A stretch of DNA of 45,701 nucleotides, taken from the NCBI GenBank assembly GCA_028293425.1, contig JAQGOV010000105.1:1-45701 (forward strand), read 5' to 3'. A model generated the notes under the pieces. The model made no database searches and was not told the origin of the DNA. It saw only the letters and a program-made list of their open reading frames with translations. The stretch comes from Verrucomicrobiales bacterium (GTDB lineage: Bacteria; Verrucomicrobiota; Verrucomicrobiia; Limisphaerales; JAQGOV01). The position numbers were made by a program, and so were the translations under genes. Positions 15,614 through 29,868 of this stretch are shown here, piece by piece; position 1 is the first letter of the stretch; each line of letters begins with the position of its first letter.

Positions 15614-18079
15614 CTAAGAATTTGGGCTTTTTAAGGAGGCGGTCTTCTTTTGCCCGGTTGCTGTCATACGGCGAGTAATATATTCCCGCAACAACGGAAT
15701 CTTGGATTTGGAGAGAAGGGATACCGCTTTGGCCGGGCCTTGGCCTGCTACCGGTTCGGCAGCGTACCAATACATTAAAGGCAAGTTGTGGTCCCCGGCG
15801 TCCTCCGCGTGGGAAAACAAGCCTTCCAGTACCGGTGTGCGTTTATCAATTGGCACGCGTTGCAAACCCGAAGCCAAATAAAGACGGACTACAGGCGAAG
15901 GATCTTCCTTGGCTAGGCGGGCCATTTGCTGGAGGAAAGCTTCGGAAGCTTCCTTGTTTTCCAGCATGAGTTGAATCGTCCATGCGCGGACGTATTCGTG
16001 TGGACTCCTGAGCGTTTTGCCAGCCACTTCTTCCGTAAGGCCGCCAGTGACATGCAGTGCCTGCAGGAGACGCAGTTGCCGGCTGGCCGAGGCAGGATCC
16101 AGCGCCCACTGGGGCCGGGTGAGGCTCATCCTTTTGTTATCAAGGTTCAGCAAGAACAGAATGTATTCCTGAGCTTTGGTGTTAGCTCCGCGCTCTTCGA
16201 GGATGCGGCGCGCATGGCGGACGTACCAATCGTTCTTGTGCAATTGAAATTGAACCAGTTCTTCTGAAGTCAGTTTTTGGAGATCAACTTTCGTCGCCTT
16301 TTTATCACCGTAAGCAATCTTGAAGATGCGTCCATTAGAACGGTCATGGGCATTTTGCTCACTCCGATGGCATTGGTTTTGGTCATACCAATCGATCATG
16401 AAAACGGCCCCATCCTGATCGTAGGTGAAATTGAGAATCTGGGACCAGCGATCGTTGAAATTGATAAAATCAGGCGCGTGGTGGCCCACGAAACCGCTGC
16501 CTTTGTGTTCAGGACTGTCCTGGTTGATGCGCTGGCCATGAATATTGTTCATGAAGAACTGGCCGCGGTATTTGTCGGGCCAATTATCTCCGAGATACAC
16601 CATCAGCCCAGCGTGCGCATGCCCTCCGCCAGCGGAATCCGAACGTCCATTTGCGGCGTGGGGACCTTTGCTCCCCAAATAGTGACGATGGTCTGCAATG
16701 GTCTTGATATCATCGTAGGTGTAAGGATTGAAATGTTGGCCTGCCTGCCGTTCGTAGCGAGCACCTTGAATCATGTGGAAAAGGTGTGGGATGACGCACG
16801 CTTCGATGATGCACTGGCCATTCTCATCGAAGTCGACACCCCACGGATTACTGGTGCCTTCGGCAAAAAGTTCGAACTGATGCTTCACCGGGTGATAGCG
16901 CCAAATACCGGCGTTGAGCCTCTGTCGTTCCGTCTCCGAGGCGCCGGGCTTGCCAACCTTGGATTGGGTAAAAACACCATGGCAGCCGTAGAGCCAGCCA
17001 TCCGGCCCCCAGGTGAAAGTGTTGAGCGTTTCATGCGTGTCCTGGTAAGCCCAGCCATCCAGCAGGATTTGCGGTTTGCCAGCCGGCTTTGGTGTGTCAC
17101 CGTCTTCGATCGGGATAAACATCAAGTAAGGCGCCGCGCCCACCCAAACACCACCAAAACCAACTTCCAGACCGCTCACCAGGTTAAGGCCTTCCATGAA
17201 AACCGTCCGCTTGTCGAACTTGCCGTCCCCATTGGTATCTTCGAGCACGAGAATCCGATCCTTCCCCTGCCCTTCCGGAGCGCGCTGCGGATAAGTGTAG
17301 GCCTCCGCAACCCAGACTCGGCCACGATCATCGAGAGCAAATGCGATCGGCTGCTTCACGTCAGGTTCACCCGCAAAAAGTTTTGCCGTAAAGCCTTCCG
17401 GGAGGGTCATTTCCTTCGCGGCTTGCTCGGGAGGTAAACCAGCGAACTTCACCTGGTCGACCGGCAACTCGGGCTGTTTCTTCTTCGCAAGCAGGTCTTG
17501 GGGAAACTTGGGTTCGCTGTCATAGAAGCGGAAATCATCAAAGTTCACATGCCCCCAATGGCCTTTCTGGTTATCTGTAATCCGAATGAACATTTCCTGG
17601 CCCCGATACTTCTCCAGGTTCACTACCACGCGTTCCAGATCTTCAGCTTCATGGCCAATATAGGTTTGGATGACTTTGTCTTTTGTCCCGTCCTTCAGGA
17701 GAAGTTCTACTTTTGTCGTCGGATGAGGCCCGCCAGCCGCTAGGAAACTGGCCCACGGATGAGTGATTTTGAAAGTCTCGGAGGTCAGCGTCCCGGTGAG
17801 GTCATCACCTTTGCGTTCATAGGTTCCAATCCAATACTGCCCTTGATGACGGGTGGTCATATCCGGCCGGCGCGGATGAACGGTATCTCCCTGAATCGGC
17901 TGCCCCTCAAAAGCATTCCCCGTGGCAGTCCAGTCTTTCAGCGTGCCATCCTCAAAATCAAAATTCAGCGGTTTGCCATCTTTCCCCAGGGGCTTGACCC
18001 CGACCGGCGGAGCGTCCGCCGCCCACAAAACGCCACAACAGGAAAGAATAACGGCGACGAGGAGAGACTTTCGTAGCAT
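15614..18079 (-). CDS. Exported PVC-type beta-propeller protein with N-terminal jelly-roll domain and HEAT-like repeats
   Basis: An 821-residue secreted protein (signal peptide 'LLVAVILSCCGVLWAAD'). Residues ~35-190 look like a carbohydrate- or lipid-binding jelly roll ('FDFEDGTLKDWTATG', 'HVNFDDFRFYD'). A PVC-type dehydrogenase propeller follows, from 'MTLPEGFTAKLFAGEPDVKQPIAFALDDRGRVWVAEAYTYP' onward, with calcium-loop-like 'LEDTNGDGKFDKRTVF'. The C-terminal ~200 residues are helical and HEAT-like. Unlike the protein at 3333-6311, no CxxCH motif is present and the protein stops soon after the HEAT region, so it cannot carry a covalent heme of its own. The propeller could act as lectin or enzyme; substrate unknown. 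It is preceded by about 110 bp without a gene. Confidence 0.87.
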   Translation of the reverse strand: MLRKSLLVAVILSCCGVLWAADAPPVGVKPLGKDGKPLNFDFEDGTLKDWTATGNAFEGQPIQGDTVHPRRPDMTTRHQGQYWIGTYERKGDDLTGTLTSETFKITHPWASFLAAGGPHPTTKVELLLKDGTKDKVIQTYIGHEAEDLERVVVNLEKYRGQEMFIRITDNQKGHWGHVNFDDFRFYDSEPKFPQDLLAKKKQPELPVDQVKFAGLPPEQAAKEMTLPEGFTAKLFAGEPDVKQPIAFALDDRGRVWVAEAYTYPQRAPEGQGKDRILVLEDTNGDGKFDKRTVFMEGLNLVSGLEVGFGGVWVGAAPYLMFIPIEDGDTPKPAGKPQILLDGWAYQDTHETLNTFTWGPDGWLYGCHGVFTQSKVGKPGASETERQRLNAGIWRYHPVKHQFELFAEGTSNPWGVDFDENGQCIIEACVIPHLFHMIQGARYERQAGQHFNPYTYDDIKTIADHRHYLGSKGPHAANGRSDSAGGGHAHAGLMVYLGDNWPDKYRGQFFMNNIHGQRINQDSPEHKGSGFVGHHAPDFINFNDRWSQILNFTYDQDGAVFMIDWYDQNQCHRSEQNAHDRSNGRIFKIAYGDKKATKVDLQKLTSEELVQFQLHKNDWYVRHARRILEERGANTKAQEYILFLLNLDNKRMSLTRPQWALDPASASRQLRLLQALHVTGGLTEEVAGKTLRSPHEYVRAWTIQLMLENKEASEAFLQQMARLAKEDPSPVVRLYLASGLQRVPIDKRTPVLEGLFSHAEDAGDHNLPLMYWYAAEPVAGQGPAKAVSLLSKSKIPLLREYITRRMTATGQKKTASLKSPNS

Positions 18080-20215: not shown

Positions 20216-22177
20216 TTAACGGACTACTCCTCTGTAAAATTTGTAGCTGCCGGGCGTGGGATCGGAAAAATAATTCGTAATTTGCCCGCTGGTAAAATTG
20301 GTCAGTGTCGCCCAGTCGACCAAATTCGGGGAAGTTTCGATTGAATAACTTTCCCCAGCCTCACCGATCAACGTCATTGAATTGCTGGTTCCAAGTGGAT
20401 CCGTGCCCCCAATACGGAACGGAGCGGCCACTATAGCCATCGTTCGGACCCCACCGGCAGCGATTGCGACCACTCGATTTAACCCGGGCGGGACATTCGT
20501 CTGCCCATATTGATTCTGCCCCCATGCCACTACGGTCCCATCGCGCTTCAGGGCTACACTGTGATTGTCTCCGGCCGCTATGGCTGTTACCCCGCTTAAG
20601 CCGGCAGGAACGTTGGTTTGCCCAAAGTCATTTCGTCCCCAAGCCACCACGGTTCCATTCAATTTCAGCGCAAGGCCGTGATATTTCCCGCCTGCAAGAG
20701 TTTTCACGTTGCTCAAATCGGGAGGGGGGCGCAACTCCTCGCCGTTCGTATCGCCCCAGTATACCACCGTGCCGTCGGCCTTCAGCCCCATGGAATAACG
20801 CTCCGTTATGGCCATGGCAACAATTTGGTTCAATCCCTGGGGTAGTGGTTCTCCGCCACCGGTATAACCCCAAGCCGCCAAGGTGCCATCCGCCTTCAGC
20901 GCCAGACTGTAGTAGGCGCCCGCAGCAATCGAAATTACATTGGTCAAGCCGGAAGGCACCGTTGCTTGACTTGATCCATCATAACCCCAGGCGAACACTG
21001 TTCCGTTGCTTCTGAGAGCCAGGCTATGAGACTCACCCGCGGCGACAGCCATCACATTGCTGAGGCCAGGTGGCGATGTTACAGGCCCTGCAGCACTTTG
21101 GCCCCATGCTTCAACTGTGCCATTGCGCCTGAGCGCTACGCGGTGACGAGAGCCCGTAGCCAGTGCTGACACGTCTCTCAAACGGCCTGGGACCAGACTC
21201 TGCCCGTAGCCATTGTTGCCCCAGGCCACGATGCTTCCGTTGGACTTAAGGGCCAGGCTAGCCTCAAAGCCGGCCGAGATCGCCACTACATTGCTGAGGC
21301 CCACCGGGACGGCGGTTAGGCTTTTATCATCTCCTCCCCAGCCGACCACAGTGCCGTCGCTCTTTAATGCCAGGCTGTGCAGCCAGCCTGCCGCTATAGC
21401 GACGACCCCGGTGAGTCCATTGGGAACGGTGCTTTCGCCGGAATAGTTTCCGCCCCACGCAACCACTGTTCCATCACGCCGAAGCGCCAGGTTGTGATAA
21501 CCACCAGCCGCAATGGCGATTACGTCTTGCAAGTTGCTTGGGGTATTCGTTTGCCCCTCGCCAAATTTGCCCCAGCCAACGACGGTTCCGTCCTCTTTAA
21601 GGGCGAGGCTGTGGAAGTAGCCTGCCGCGATCGCTTTCACCGCTGTTAGATCTGCAGGCACATTGGTTTGTTGATAGTCATTCATCCCCCATGAGATGAC
21701 GGTTCCGTCGTTTCTGAGGGCCAGACTGTGCCTGTTCGCCGAGATAGTTACCACTTTGGACAGGCCGGCCGGAATGTTTGTCCTCCCACGGTCATTCGAC
21801 CCCCATGCAGTCACCGTTCCATCTTTTTTCAAAATGAGGTTATACGTATCGCCGGCTGAGATAGTAGCCACATTGTCCAAGCCGGCTGGAATCAGACAAT
21901 CCCCAGCCATGTCGAACCCCCACGCCATTACGGTGCCGTTGGTGGTTATTGTCAAATTGTGATACTCTCCCGCGGCAATTGCGCTAAAGCGAACGTTCGC
22001 CTCCGCATATGGCAGGATGAACTCCCCCCACTCCACCACCGTGCCCGCCGGAGCAGCCGCTGTAGTCATTGCACTGAAGGCGTTTATCAATACCAGCACG
22101 AAGAGGGACGAGCGCGCATGCGCTCTGACAGTATTGAGAATGAAGGTTACCCCTGGACGTTTATAGTTATAAGTCAT
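20216..22177 (-). CDS. Exported RCC1-repeat beta-propeller protein
   Basis: The protein consists of 13 complete RCC1-like repeats of about 38-40 residues plus a partial fourteenth. The consensus is 'VAIAAGxxHSLALKxDGTVVAWGxNxxGQTNVPxGLxxV'. Fourteen units would suit two seven-bladed propellers. An N-terminal segment 'SLFVLVLINAFSAMTTAAAPAG' is a likely signal peptide. The tail 'SYSIETSPNLVDWATLTNF...FYRGVV' recurs in secreted Verrucomicrobia proteins. I chose the ATG at 22177; the track begins at a GTG four codons earlier. Bacterial RCC1 proteins of this kind are surface or periplasmic binding proteins of unknown ligand, and the eukaryotic Ran-GEF role should not be transferred. Confidence 0.88.
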   Translation of the reverse strand: MTYNYKRPGVTFILNTVRAHARSSLFVLVLINAFSAMTTAAAPAGTVVEWGEFILPYAEANVRFSAIAAGEYHNLTITTNGTVMAWGFDMAGDCLIPAGLDNVATISAGDTYNLILKKDGTVTAWGSNDRGRTNIPAGLSKVVTISANRHSLALRNDGTVISWGMNDYQQTNVPADLTAVKAIAAGYFHSLALKEDGTVVGWGKFGEGQTNTPSNLQDVIAIAAGGYHNLALRRDGTVVAWGGNYSGESTVPNGLTGVVAIAAGWLHSLALKSDGTVVGWGGDDKSLTAVPVGLSNVVAISAGFEASLALKSNGSIVAWGNNGYGQSLVPGRLRDVSALATGSRHRVALRRNGTVEAWGQSAAGPVTSPPGLSNVMAVAAGESHSLALRSNGTVFAWGYDGSSQATVPSGLTNVISIAAGAYYSLALKADGTLAAWGYTGGGEPLPQGLNQIVAMAITERYSMGLKADGTVVYWGDTNGEELRPPPDLSNVKTLAGGKYHGLALKLNGTVVAWGRNDFGQTNVPAGLSGVTAIAAGDNHSVALKRDGTVVAWGQNQYGQTNVPPGLNRVVAIAAGGVRTMAIVAAPFRIGGTDPLGTSNSMTLIGEAGESYSIETSPNLVDWATLTNFTSGQITNYFSDPTPGSYKFYRGVVR

Positions 22178-22189
22178 ATCCCCACGCAC

Positions 22190-25199: not shown

Positions 25200-25515
25200 G
25201 GAACAAGGTAAAGCGCGGCTTACCCGCGCCCTATGGGGAAAAATCCTCCGCACCACCATCCGGCAGCCCACCGCTAGCCAAACGAGAGCAAAAACGGGTC
25301 CCAAATTCTGAGCTCAACAAATGCTCCGACCCCGGAACGATGAAGGCCGCTCCAATTATCGGGCTTTTCAAGAAATTCCCAGTCAGAAAAGTGCCCGGAA
25401 ATTGAATGTTTTCACTCCCCAAGCCTATAGAGATGTTGCAATCCTTTGGAGGGTTGGGGAATCTGTGCCGATAAACTTGCAAGACAGCAGGTTTGGTCTG
25501 CTTTTCGATTTAACG
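25200..25515. other. Divergent intergenic region, SPW gene and debranching enzyme gene
   Basis: The track extends both flanking genes into this 316-bp stretch, but the translated extensions are low in family-like features. I therefore read it as the shared upstream region. No clear -35/-10 pair or Shine-Dalgarno sequence stands out for either gene. Confidence 0.4.
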
Positions 25516-28500
25516 ATGACGAACTTTGTCATGATTCCGGCCACCGGCGCACGGGTGCTCCGTTTCGTGGGTGATCGACTTGTTTTTACGCTCCAACGGG
25601 CGGATGGCAAAACCCTGCCCGAAGGCTGGCGTGCCTTTCTCCGAACAAACCTGGGGCGAGGCTCGGTCCTCCGGCAAGAAATTATCAATGCCCACTCCGG
25701 ACGCCGCCGCTTGGCGCAATCCTCTTGGCGAGATGTCCCCATGGAAAGTCTTGATGGCGAATGGCGCCGGGAAATCGTGATGAACGAAGTCGGTTATTTC
25801 CGCGCCAAGGCTTATGCGGTTGACCCCCAGGGCCGCCAGCATTGGCCGGACGGACCTGACCTCGGCATCAGCATCCATCCTGACAGTTATCGGACAGCCA
25901 ACTCGATTTATTGCGCCTTCGTGCGCATGTTTGGCGAATCGCGAACCGCCATCTCCACGCGCAATCCGCTCTTTGAAATGCAACTCGCAGAGCTTGACCA
26001 GCAGGGATTCACAGTGATTCCTCCAAGTGGCAAGCTCCGGGATTTAATCAAAGCCCTGCCCCACATCGTGGATACCCTTGGGTGCCGCATTCTGCACCTT
26101 CTCCCGGTGAATCCAACACCGACTGTCTTTGCCCGCATGGGACGCTATGGAAGCCCTTATGCCTCGCTGGATTTGACAGGCATCGACCCCGCGCTCGTCG
26201 AGTTCGACAAAAAAACCACCGGGGTCGACCAGTTTAAAGAATTGACCTTTGCTGCGCATTGTCGCGGCGCACGCGTCTTCCTGGACATCGTGATCAATCA
26301 CACGGGTTGGGGCGCATGGCTCCAGGAACATCATCCCGAGTGGTACCTGCGCAAAGAGAACGGAGAATTCATCAGCCCCGGCGCGTGGGGGACTTTTTGG
26401 GAAGACCTGAGCGAGTTGGATCACCGGCATCCCAAGCTCTGGGAATACATCGCGGACGTGCTGCTGACATGGTGCCGTCGTGGCGTAGACGGTTTTCGGT
26501 GCGATGCCGGTTACAAAATCCCGGTTCCCGCGTGGCAATACATCACAGCTCGCGTCCTGGATGAATTTCCTGAAACAATTTTCCTGTTGGAAGGCTTGGG
26601 CGGATCCTGGGAAGCTACGGAAAACCTGCTCACTGACGGCGGCATGCAGTGGGCTTATTCCGAGCTGTTCCAAAATTATTCCGGCTCTGCAGTATCCAGC
26701 TACCTGGATTACAGCAATGGCCAGAACGAACGAGTCGGCCTCTACGTCCACTACAGCGAAACCCATGATAACGATCGTCTGGCTAAGGAAGGCCGCACTT
26801 GGTCTCTGCTTCGGAATCGGCTCTGCGCATTAACCAGCGCCAGTGGTGGCTTTGGATTTACCTGTGGGGTGGAATGGCTGGCCACGGAAAAGCTCAATGT
26901 GCATTCCAGCCGCGGCCTGTCTTGGGGTAACCCCGAAAACATTGTCCCTGAGCTGGCTGAGTTGAACCGGTTGCTTGCGCATCATCCCTGTTTTCTGGAT
27001 GGAGCAAGCCTGACCCGCCTCAACGCCGCCCATTCGCCCATTTATGCGTTGAGCCGGATCTCTGCGGAAGGGTTGGATAAGGTCCTGGTGCTCGTTAATA
27101 CCGACCTGAATTCCGCTCATCCTTTTGCCTTAAGCCAGCAGGATTTTGTTGAGATGGGCGAGCCGCAACTCGATCTGCTTACCCAAAAACCTTTCGTTTG
27201 GGAGAAGCGGAGCGCGAATGAGGTCGGTTTCCAAATGCCCGCCGGTGGCTGTTTTTGTTTGGCGCTCGGTCTCCTTCCACGGGGGCTCACCGGAAACAGC
27301 TACCGCAAGGCGCGTGCGCAGGCTGCCTGGCTGGTGACAGCCCTTCGAGAAACATTGCCGTGTGAGGAGGTTGGCCCTTACCACTGGAGGGAACTGGCGG
27401 AAAGGGTGAACACTTCCCCAAGCCGGGTGCTATCAAGTCTCAGTGTCCTGAAGCCCGAACTGGCCCGAACCAATCTGGTCACGGCTCTTGACGATGCCTT
27501 GGCATCAGAGCATTACCCAAACGTTGTGCTTTGGTCCCAACTCGATGTGCGCCGTATCACTCCTGTCCCGCCCGGTCATTGGCTGTTGGTCGAGGATAAA
27601 GCGCCTTTCCGCGCAACGCTGAAATGTGGCGATCGGCAATACCACGTGGAGTCGATCGAAACCAAAAGCGGACACGTTGCTTCCTTCCATCCGAACATTT
27701 ACACCGGCAATGTCGAATTGGAAATGGAGCGTTATGGCGCCGGGGAAACGATGCTCGCGGCGACTGTAAGGTTTCTTTCGGCTGAACCGCAGGTCGCCGG
27801 GTTGCGAACCACGGCTGACCTCGCCCGGAAAGCCGGCAATATAAAGGCTCCCACTGGTCTGGCTTTGCTGACCAACGGCATCGGTGGCATGGCTCGAATC
27901 CACGCCAACCTCGGCGAGGTAACGTCAAAATATGACTGCGCCCTTGCTGCGAACCTTCACGCCAGCGTTCCCGTGGACCGGCATATTTTCGCAAAACGCA
28001 TCCGGGTCTGGGTAGCTGCGGATGGTTTCATTTCACCGCTCAACGACGATAGCCTCGTGGAATTCCTGCCCGGCCCTCCGGCCAGATGGCGCTTTGTGGC
28101 CGGAGCGGGTGACGGCAGAATGATCGAGATCCAGGTGGTCGCCGATATGATCCCTGGTTGGAACACCACTGTGCTCCGTTTTATCCGGCCAGGGAGTCTT
28201 CCCCTTTTCGGCAAAGAGCTGCCTCCCGAATCCAAAGTGAGCCTGACCGTCCGGGTGGATATTGAGGACCGCAGCTTCCATATGGAAACGGAGCGGAATC
28301 CCGGTGCTGAACATCATTTCGCGGCGAACTCCCGGCCGCTCACCGATAAAACCGGTTTCGAGTTCACGCCAGCAGCCGATCGCCATTTGCGGGCTTTCAC
28401 GGATTCCGGCTTCTACCATCACGAAGCTGAATGGAGCATGGGAATCTTCCATCCAGTCGAAGCTTCCAGGGGACAGCGAACCCACGCGGACGCCTTTAGT

Positions 28501-29868
28501 CCCGGTTGGTTTGAGTTGCCTATCTCCAAGGGTACAAGCGTCACCCTCGTGCTGAACGCGGATCGGCAGGAGCCTCCGGCTGGCATTCTCAAAACGTTGG
28601 AAGTCGCTCGGGAGACTCAGAACGAGGAAACCGTCAAAAGGTCGGAGCAGCAGGATGCCTTTGGCCGCCAGCTCGCCCTTGCGGTTCAGGCCTTCGTAGT
28701 CCGCCGCGAGAACGGGAAAACGGTCATCGCTGGTTATCCTTGGTTTTTGGACTGGGGCCGGGATTCGCTCATTTGCGCGAGAGGAATGCTCGCAGCGGGA
28801 ATGACCGAAGAAGTGGAGCACCTCCTGATTACCTTCGGTAGGTTTGCAGCGAAAGGCACCTTGCCCAACAGCATCCATGGCGAGGACGCTTCGAACCGCG
28901 ACACCAGCGATGCACCGCTCTGGTATGGCATCGTATGCGAAGAATTGGCCGAACTCACGGGCCAGCGCATCCTCGATGTCAAAGTGGACTCCAACGGCCG
29001 CACGATTACCGACGTGCTCCTAGAAATTGCCACCGGCTACCGGGATGGCACTCCCAACGGCATTCGAATGGACCGGGCCTCTGGTTTGATCTGGAGCCCG
29101 AGCCATTTTACCTGGATGGATACCAATTACCCTGCGGGCACTCCTCGCGAAGGCTACCCCGTGGAAATCCAGGTGCTCTGGATCCGGCTGCTCCGGCATC
29201 TGGCGAAGCTGGATTTGAAAGAAAGTCCGCAATGGGCGGAGCTGGCCAGGCTCGCCGAAGGCTCTTTTGAACGGCTTTTCTGGCTGGAGAACCGCGGCTA
29301 TTTCTCCGATCTTTTAATTGCTTCACCCTACCGACCCGCAGCCGAAGCCGTCGCTGACGATGCGCTCCGGAGCAATTATCTTTTTGCTATCAGCCTCGGT
29401 TTGGTCAGCGGCCAGAAAGCCCGCCGCGCAGTGGACGCCGCTGCTCGTTACCTCGTGGTCCCAGGGGCTTTGAGGACACTGGCTCCGCTCCCTGTGGAAC
29501 AGCCCTTGGCGATTTACCTGCATGGCGCTCTGCTGAACAATCCGAACGCTCCGTACCAGGGCCGTTATGAGGGCGACGAAGATACCCGACGGAAAGCCGC
29601 CTACCACAATGGAACCGCCTGGACTTGGACTTTCCCGAGCTTTTGTGAAGCGTTAGCGGAAGCCTGGGAGCACTCCCCGCAGTCCATAGCCGCAGCCCGA
29701 AGCTACCTGGCGAGCATGGACACTCTCATGAATGAGGGTTGCCTGGGCCAACTGCCGGAAATTGTGGACGGCGACGCACCCCACGAGCAAAGAGGCTGCG
29801 ATGCGCAGGCTTGGGGTGCTACGGAAGCGCTGCGGGTTTGGAGGAAACTAAATACCCCGAACCGGTAA
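25516..29868 (+). CDS. Giant two-domain glycogen debranching enzyme (GH13 glucanotransferase plus GH133 amylo-alpha-1,6-glucosidase)
   Basis: The protein (about 1450 residues; numbers below count from the track ATG at 25321) joins two enzymes. The first is a GH13-type barrel with 'LDIVINHTGWGAW' (about 322), the nucleophile Asp395 in 'VDGFRCDAGYK', Glu424 in 'LLEGLGGSW' and Asp483 in 'SETHDNDRLA'. The C-terminal third is a GH133 (alpha/alpha)6 domain with 'GYPWFLDWGRDSLICARG' (Asp1148), 'NGTAWTWTFPSF' and 'GQLPEIVDGD' (Glu1480). This is the layout of eukaryotic AGL: it moves a maltooligosaccharide, then hydrolyses the alpha-1,6 branch. The 65 codons before 25516 look non-coding, so the start is set at ATG 25516; another ATG lies at 25531. 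No signal peptide, so cytoplasmic. No other glycogen gene is adjacent. Confidence 0.9.
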   Translation: MTNFVMIPATGARVLRFVGDRLVFTLQRADGKTLPEGWRAFLRTNLGRGSVLRQEIINAHSGRRRLAQSSWRDVPMESLDGEWRREIVMNEVGYFRAKAYAVDPQGRQHWPDGPDLGISIHPDSYRTANSIYCAFVRMFGESRTAISTRNPLFEMQLAELDQQGFTVIPPSGKLRDLIKALPHIVDTLGCRILHLLPVNPTPTVFARMGRYGSPYASLDLTGIDPALVEFDKKTTGVDQFKELTFAAHCRGARVFLDIVINHTGWGAWLQEHHPEWYLRKENGEFISPGAWGTFWEDLSELDHRHPKLWEYIADVLLTWCRRGVDGFRCDAGYKIPVPAWQYITARVLDEFPETIFLLEGLGGSWEATENLLTDGGMQWAYSELFQNYSGSAVSSYLDYSNGQNERVGLYVHYSETHDNDRLAKEGRTWSLLRNRLCALTSASGGFGFTCGVEWLATEKLNVHSSRGLSWGNPENIVPELAELNRLLAHHPCFLDGASLTRLNAAHSPIYALSRISAEGLDKVLVLVNTDLNSAHPFALSQQDFVEMGEPQLDLLTQKPFVWEKRSANEVGFQMPAGGCFCLALGLLPRGLTGNSYRKARAQAAWLVTALRETLPCEEVGPYHWRELAERVNTSPSRVLSSLSVLKPELARTNLVTALDDALASEHYPNVVLWSQLDVRRITPVPPGHWLLVEDKAPFRATLKCGDRQYHVESIETKSGHVASFHPNIYTGNVELEMERYGAGETMLAATVRFLSAEPQVAGLRTTADLARKAGNIKAPTGLALLTNGIGGMARIHANLGEVTSKYDCALAANLHASVPVDRHIFAKRIRVWVAADGFISPLNDDSLVEFLPGPPARWRFVAGAGDGRMIEIQVVADMIPGWNTTVLRFIRPGSLPLFGKELPPESKVSLTVRVDIEDRSFHMETERNPGAEHHFAANSRPLTDKTGFEFTPAADRHLRAFTDSGFYHHEAEWSMGIFHPVEASRGQRTHADAFSPGWFELPISKGTSVTLVLNADRQEPPAGILKTLEVARETQNEETVKRSEQQDAFGRQLALAVQAFVVRRENGKTVIAGYPWFLDWGRDSLICARGMLAAGMTEEVEHLLITFGRFAAKGTLPNSIHGEDASNRDTSDAPLWYGIVCEELAELTGQRILDVKVDSNGRTITDVLLEIATGYRDGTPNGIRMDRASGLIWSPSHFTWMDTNYPAGTPREGYPVEIQVLWIRLLRHLAKLDLKESPQWAELARLAEGSFERLFWLENRGYFSDLLIASPYRPAAEAVADDALRSNYLFAISLGLVSGQKARRAVDAAARYLVVPGALRTLAPLPVEQPLAIYLHGALLNNPNAPYQGRYEGDEDTRRKAAYHNGTAWTWTFPSFCEALAEAWEHSPQSIAAARSYLASMDTLMNEGCLGQLPEIVDGDAPHEQRGCDAQAWGATEALRVWRKLNTPNR

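Follow-up and report, generated by a model that had tools for sequence, protein, structure and literature searches.

Does a bacterium of the Verrucomicrobiales encode a glycogen debranching enzyme of the eukaryotic kind, and, if it does, is the resemblance one of descent or of design? The question is raised by a gene on the forward strand, at positions 25516-29868 of the 45,701-nucleotide stretch of DNA analysed here (the window), which an earlier note had called eukaryote-like. As we argue below, the description is apt for the architecture of the protein but not for its descent: with a probability of roughly 0.78, the gene encodes a bacterial indirect glycogen debranching enzyme, stemming from a separate event in these bacteria that joined a GH13 domain to a bacterial GH133 and its GDE_N. 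The reading frame codes for 1450 amino acids plus a stop, uninterrupted, and is contained in an open frame of 1515 codons at 25321-29868 (+). Its start is taken from the orthologues: homology with them begins at 25516, the start already given in the earlier note, so 25516-29868 is the right gene and the upstream in-frame ATG at 25321 is unlikely to be the true start.

All domains of the protein are given here in order along the forward strand. The AF2 model of the GH13 half opens with an N-terminal beta-rich domain (residues 1-135, 25516-25920), for which a Pfam search gave no match. There follows the GH13 (beta/alpha)8 barrel (residues ~164-490, 26005-26985), with 3dhu and 4gkl as its closest solved relatives, in which the Pfam Alpha-amylase/GH13 family covers residues 172-335 at 39 bits, over its cut-off, and then a beta-sandwich corresponding to GH13 domain C (residues ~495-583, 26998-27264). 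The model and the alignment show the linker region that comes next (residues 593-753, 27292-27774) as a helical bundle followed by a beta domain, the latter carrying the motif WxxDxRRxxPxPPGHxLLV; the linker is poorly conserved in sequence, and yet it is found in 47 of 47 aligned fusions. The remainder consists of GDE_N (PF12439, residues 784-1010, 27865-28545, 71 bits) and the GH133 (alpha/alpha)6 domain, GDE_C (PF06202, residues 1058-1439, 28687-29832, 219 bits), both over their cut-offs. The order of GH13 followed by GH133 on a single chain of ~1450 residues, as first noticed in the earlier note, is in this way confirmed by Pfam. Elsewhere in the same genome, on contig C237, a frame of 1568 codons (L055:4413-9116, -) matches GH13 in its first ~150 residues only, the rest of it giving no Pfam family at E<=0.001.

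Both active sites appear to be intact, again as the earlier note had it. In the GH13 half, alignment of the orthologues predicts D330 as the nucleophile (GFRCDAG, 26503-26505, +), E359 as the acid/base (FLLEGLGG, 26590-26592, +) and D418 as the third acid (ETHDN, 26767-26769, +), i.e. the Asp/Glu/Asp triad in a barrel by which a GH13 enzyme is recognized. In the GH133 half, D1083 (28762-28764, +), D1202 of the WMD motif (29119-29121, +) and E1415 of the LPE motif (29758-29760, +) align with D1078, D1241 and E1492 of the C. glabrata debranching enzyme (GDE), residues whose mutation kills its glucosidase activity (PMC4837477); with D1202 and E1415 as catalytic Asp and Glu, and a GDE_C score over the cut-off, the domain belongs to GH133. 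All six residues are essentially invariant among ~28 aligned full-length orthologues. The AGL-like domain order and the intact active sites are thus supported, as is a probable role in bifunctional debranching, of which the two activities and the order in which they act are inferred.

How does the protein relate to known enzymes? With eukaryotic AGL/GDE (GH13_25-GH133; C. glabrata 5d06, human 8zeq) it shares the order of the two halves on one chain of ~1,500 residues, the catalytic residues of both and glycogen phosphorylase as a partner. That said, the AGL transferase model hDGE_amylase (PF14701) stays below its cut-off in the fusion (16.4 vs 27 bits), the AGL equivalog TIGR01531 scores 23 bits where 1399 are required, and the AGL-specific N-terminal and central domains have no Pfam match in the fusion even at E<=10, the middle of the fusion being made up of a bacterial GDE_N and a private linker instead. 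The short prokaryotic GH133s (TIGR01561 gde_arch; Thermococcus 7vma) are alike in GDE_N, GDE_C and catalytic residues, but they lack the GH13 partner domain and the fusion reaches only 127 bits on the gde_arch model, with its cut-off of 364. Among GH13 enzymes, the closest solved sequences are those of GH13_48 (3dhu, 4gkl), with which the fusion shares a Cys before the nucleophile; however, GH13_48 proteins have no GH133, and the fusion lacks the GQ of their CSR-VII and falls in a clade of its own, and we therefore do not place it in that subfamily. The AlphaFold models are usable (pLDDT 79 for the GH13 half and 86 for the GH133 half). Fold matches of the GH133 half include GH94 phosphorylases as well as C. 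glabrata GDE and 7vma, the amylo-1,6-glucosidase of Thermococcus. Those of the GH13 half are best for GlgE, 3dhu and 4gkl, AGL being absent from its 50 best. The GlgE maltosyltransferase (GH13_3) is the best match overall, including the N-terminal beta domain, but a GlgE function for this half was rejected: the Asn after the GlgE nucleophile (DNPHTKP) is Ala in the fusion (DAGY), and the AENPPKKYQD stretch is absent.

Could the fusion and AGL nevertheless go back to one ancient GH13-GH133 protein, common to both through, e.g., gene transfer? The identical domain order and size would suit such an ancestry, as would the position of the fusion GH13, which is a weakly supported neighbour of the AGL-type GH13s (84/95) and, once outgroups are included, falls next to the AGL-type proteins of bacteria at a modest support of 90/79. 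On the other hand, in a maximum-likelihood tree of GH133, the fusions and the lone GH133 of one further genome (G235) form one group (100/99) separate from the short prokaryotic enzymes, and a clade of fusions with AGL is rejected by the AU test (p=0.0013), with AGL in a different branch. For GH13, the part of human AGL groups with unfused bacterial genes (97/98), and the rejection of a clade uniting the fusions with human AGL is weaker (p=0.027, AGL being represented in part only); with AGL branches as long as they are, neither AU test is absolute. What is more, the human and yeast AGL glucosidase domains lie closer to ordinary short bacterial GH133s (60-90 bits against most of them) than to the fusion GH133s (18-58 bits), and the nucleophile motif of the fusions, GVDGFRCDAGY, differs from the VRLDNCHS of AGL and the FRVDNPHT of GlgE. 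Shared ancestry is thus very improbable and already largely refuted, and the trees, the motifs and the domain models alike led us to reject a eukaryotic source, whether by descent from AGL or by gene transfer. The joining of GH13 to GH133 in these bacteria rather appears to be independent of that in eukaryotes and convergent with it, although a distant common ancestor of the fusion GH13 and the AGL-type transferases is possible, the GH13 half forming a clade of its own and possibly being their distant sister. The earlier note had proposed a phylogeny of each half and had named, as outcomes that would count against it, an independent fusion and a GH13 half placed with ordinary bacterial amylases. 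The former is what the trees indicate, and on this point its reading falls; the latter is not observed, since the GH13 half forms its own clade.

Several unfused genes were found along the way. Genomes G124, G139 and G145 carry stand-alone GH13s of the AGL-transferase type (L058:493-2238, -; L062:532-2250, -; L069:505-2766, -) with a VRFDNxHS motif and PF14701 over its cut-off, and it is these that the human AGL GH13 part joins; in G145, an AGL-type GH13 gene directly adjoins a GH133 gene (L074:8394-10478). The lone GH133 of G235 (L135:7597-9684, -), sister to the fusion GH133s and with a GH63-like protein as its upstream neighbour, keeps part of the linker motif, and for this reason it may be a fusion that has lost its GH13 half.

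The fusion is no rare or recent oddity, a possibility that surveys of the phylum and of the window's order reject. By a tally of strong matches, 138 of the 289 genomes in a phylum-wide sample have a full-length orthologue. With one genome taken per family, ~52 of the 58 genomes in the window's order carry it, mostly at 50-62% identity, and while the other orders of the same class are mostly without it, full-length relatives at 38-45% identity are present in many families of the phylum's other classes. A scan of genome contigs with one protein as the query reached a single close relative, in a Verrucomicrobiales MAG (60% identity), and plasmid and phage collections did not contain the full fusion. 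Across 47 fusions, identity in the GH13 half closely tracks that in the GH133 half (r=0.93), which fits inheritance as one unit.

In glycogen breakdown, phosphorylase cuts the outer chains back until a few glucoses are left before the branch. The GH13 half would then transfer what is left of the chain, all but its last glucose, to the end of an adjacent chain, the GH133 half, judging from its family and conserved residues, would hydrolyse the leftover alpha-1,6 glucose, and phosphorylase would resume. Free malto-oligosaccharides would not be released in such a cycle, in keeping with what is known of indirect debranching (PMC4829877), and GlgX and MalQ would therefore be dispensable. In other words, if the fusion debranches indirectly, its carriers should need neither GlgX (GH13_11) nor GH77 (MalQ), which take care of the same metabolic step by direct debranching, differing from the fusion in family and mechanism.

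The gene complement agrees with this expectation, fusion and GlgX plus MalQ being almost mutually exclusive phylum-wide. GlgX is present in 4 of 138 fusion carriers (absent from 134) against 61 of 151 genomes without the fusion, and GH77, searched last, as an advance prediction, in 9 of 138 carriers (absent from 129) against 124 of 151, whereas phosphorylase is encoded in 135 of the 138; these genome-level counts ignore phylogeny, but with one vote per family both associations hold (p=0.0003 for GH77, p=0.0004 for GlgX) in what is a coarse test with families counted by hand. GlgX and GH77 also go together (GH77 in 60 of 65 GlgX genomes), and some genomes without GlgX lack the fusion as well. 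In the window's order, GlgX is found in 7 and phosphorylase in 56 of 58 genomes. By coordinates, nine genomes belonging to five families have phosphorylase as the gene directly downstream of the fusion and on its strand. Phosphorylase (TIGR02094), a GlgA-like gene and a GlgB-like gene come after the fusion, in this order, at four loci from three families; in a fourth family, the run comprises phosphorylase and a GlgA-like gene. The GlgA-like and GlgB-like neighbours score under the curated cut-offs of those models. One such run has directly upstream of it a 1408-codon frame (L137:1187-5410, +) with GYF_2, filament-like and OmpA matches. All in all, gene neighbourhood and gene complement strongly indicate the function, and in these bacteria the fusion seems to have taken the place of the debranching enzymes that are usual in bacteria.

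Two other functional readings deserve attention. One could argue that the GH13 half hydrolyses rather than transfers, its nearest solved relatives being maltogenic amylases, in which case outer chains would be trimmed hydrolytically and the branch glucose removed, and the debranching enzyme would be bifunctional without being of transferase type. The closest PDB sequences, 3dhu (147 bits) and 4gkl (106 bits), have indeed been assigned to GH13_48 (PMC11239784), a subfamily of maltogenic amylases whose Cys before the nucleophile was noted above. Yet the outgroup tree puts the fusion GH13, if weakly, nearer to the AGL-type transferases than to GH13_48, the CSR-VII that ends in GQ in GH13_48 reads GV in the fusion (GVEW), and hydrolysis would release maltose or oligosaccharides in carriers that mostly have no GH77, all of which makes a hydrolase unlikely. 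It could also be that the substrate is not stored glycogen but imported or extracellular alpha-glucans. Polysaccharide degradation is widespread among the host's relatives, and in the window no glg genes adjoin the fusion; the N-terminus, however, does not read like a signal peptide, and elsewhere the gene sits in a run with phosphorylase and GlgA-like and GlgB-like genes, leaving this alternative barely credible. We therefore retain indirect debranching of glycogen by a transferase-glucosidase as the preferred reading.

The window's own genome is a less tidy case. The gene had been said to stand alone without glg genes, and this is correct within the window, where we also observed an RCC1-repeat protein of 657 amino acids (20216-22189, -) and a PVC-type heme-binding CxxCH protein (15614-18079, -). 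It does not extend to the genome, as other contigs encode GlgC, a GlgE-like protein, TreS-Mak, MalQ, two GlgB, TreY, TreZ and phosphorylase, and a second, short GH133 of the gde_arch type lies next to TreZ on contig C243 (L051:2521-4569, -). Exceptionally for a carrier, the genome holds, besides the fusion and GH77, two pieces of GlgX (G000:C204:1-1374 and G000:C183:15328-16011), and replacement is therefore incomplete here. The assembly is a fragmented MAG of 750 contigs with an estimated contamination of 6%, and either this double presence is real or some of the contigs are foreign; the GlgX pieces in particular could be contamination.

In a literature search thin on subscription journals, the bacterial fusion was not described in any paper that we found; the 33 apparent mentions of GH133 in one 2024 paper turned out to stand for GH13_38, with the underscore lost. 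The bifunctional enzyme has been described as one of eukaryotic glycogen degradation (PMC7965971), and a rule to that effect, which is used in the debate on plastid origins (PMC4829877; in substance also PMC7965971), fails for much of this phylum. In freshwater Verrucomicrobia, glgABCP were reported to be common and glgX was detected in one genome only (PMC5673642), and the fusion offers an explanation for the missing glgX. The fusion is a real and widespread bacterial enzyme whose layout is convergent with that of AGL, as, so far as sequence allows one to judge, its role very probably is too. Going further, we lean towards the view that much of the phylum has convergently evolved a eukaryote-style glycogen breakdown free of malto-oligosaccharides, in which one transferase-glucosidase replaces GlgX and MalQ, and that the separate AGL-type transferase genes of other lineages, in one case beside GH133, represent a possible pre-fusion state of AGL. 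Finally, anyone asking why two debranching activities should become joined on one chain has in these bacteria a natural replicate.
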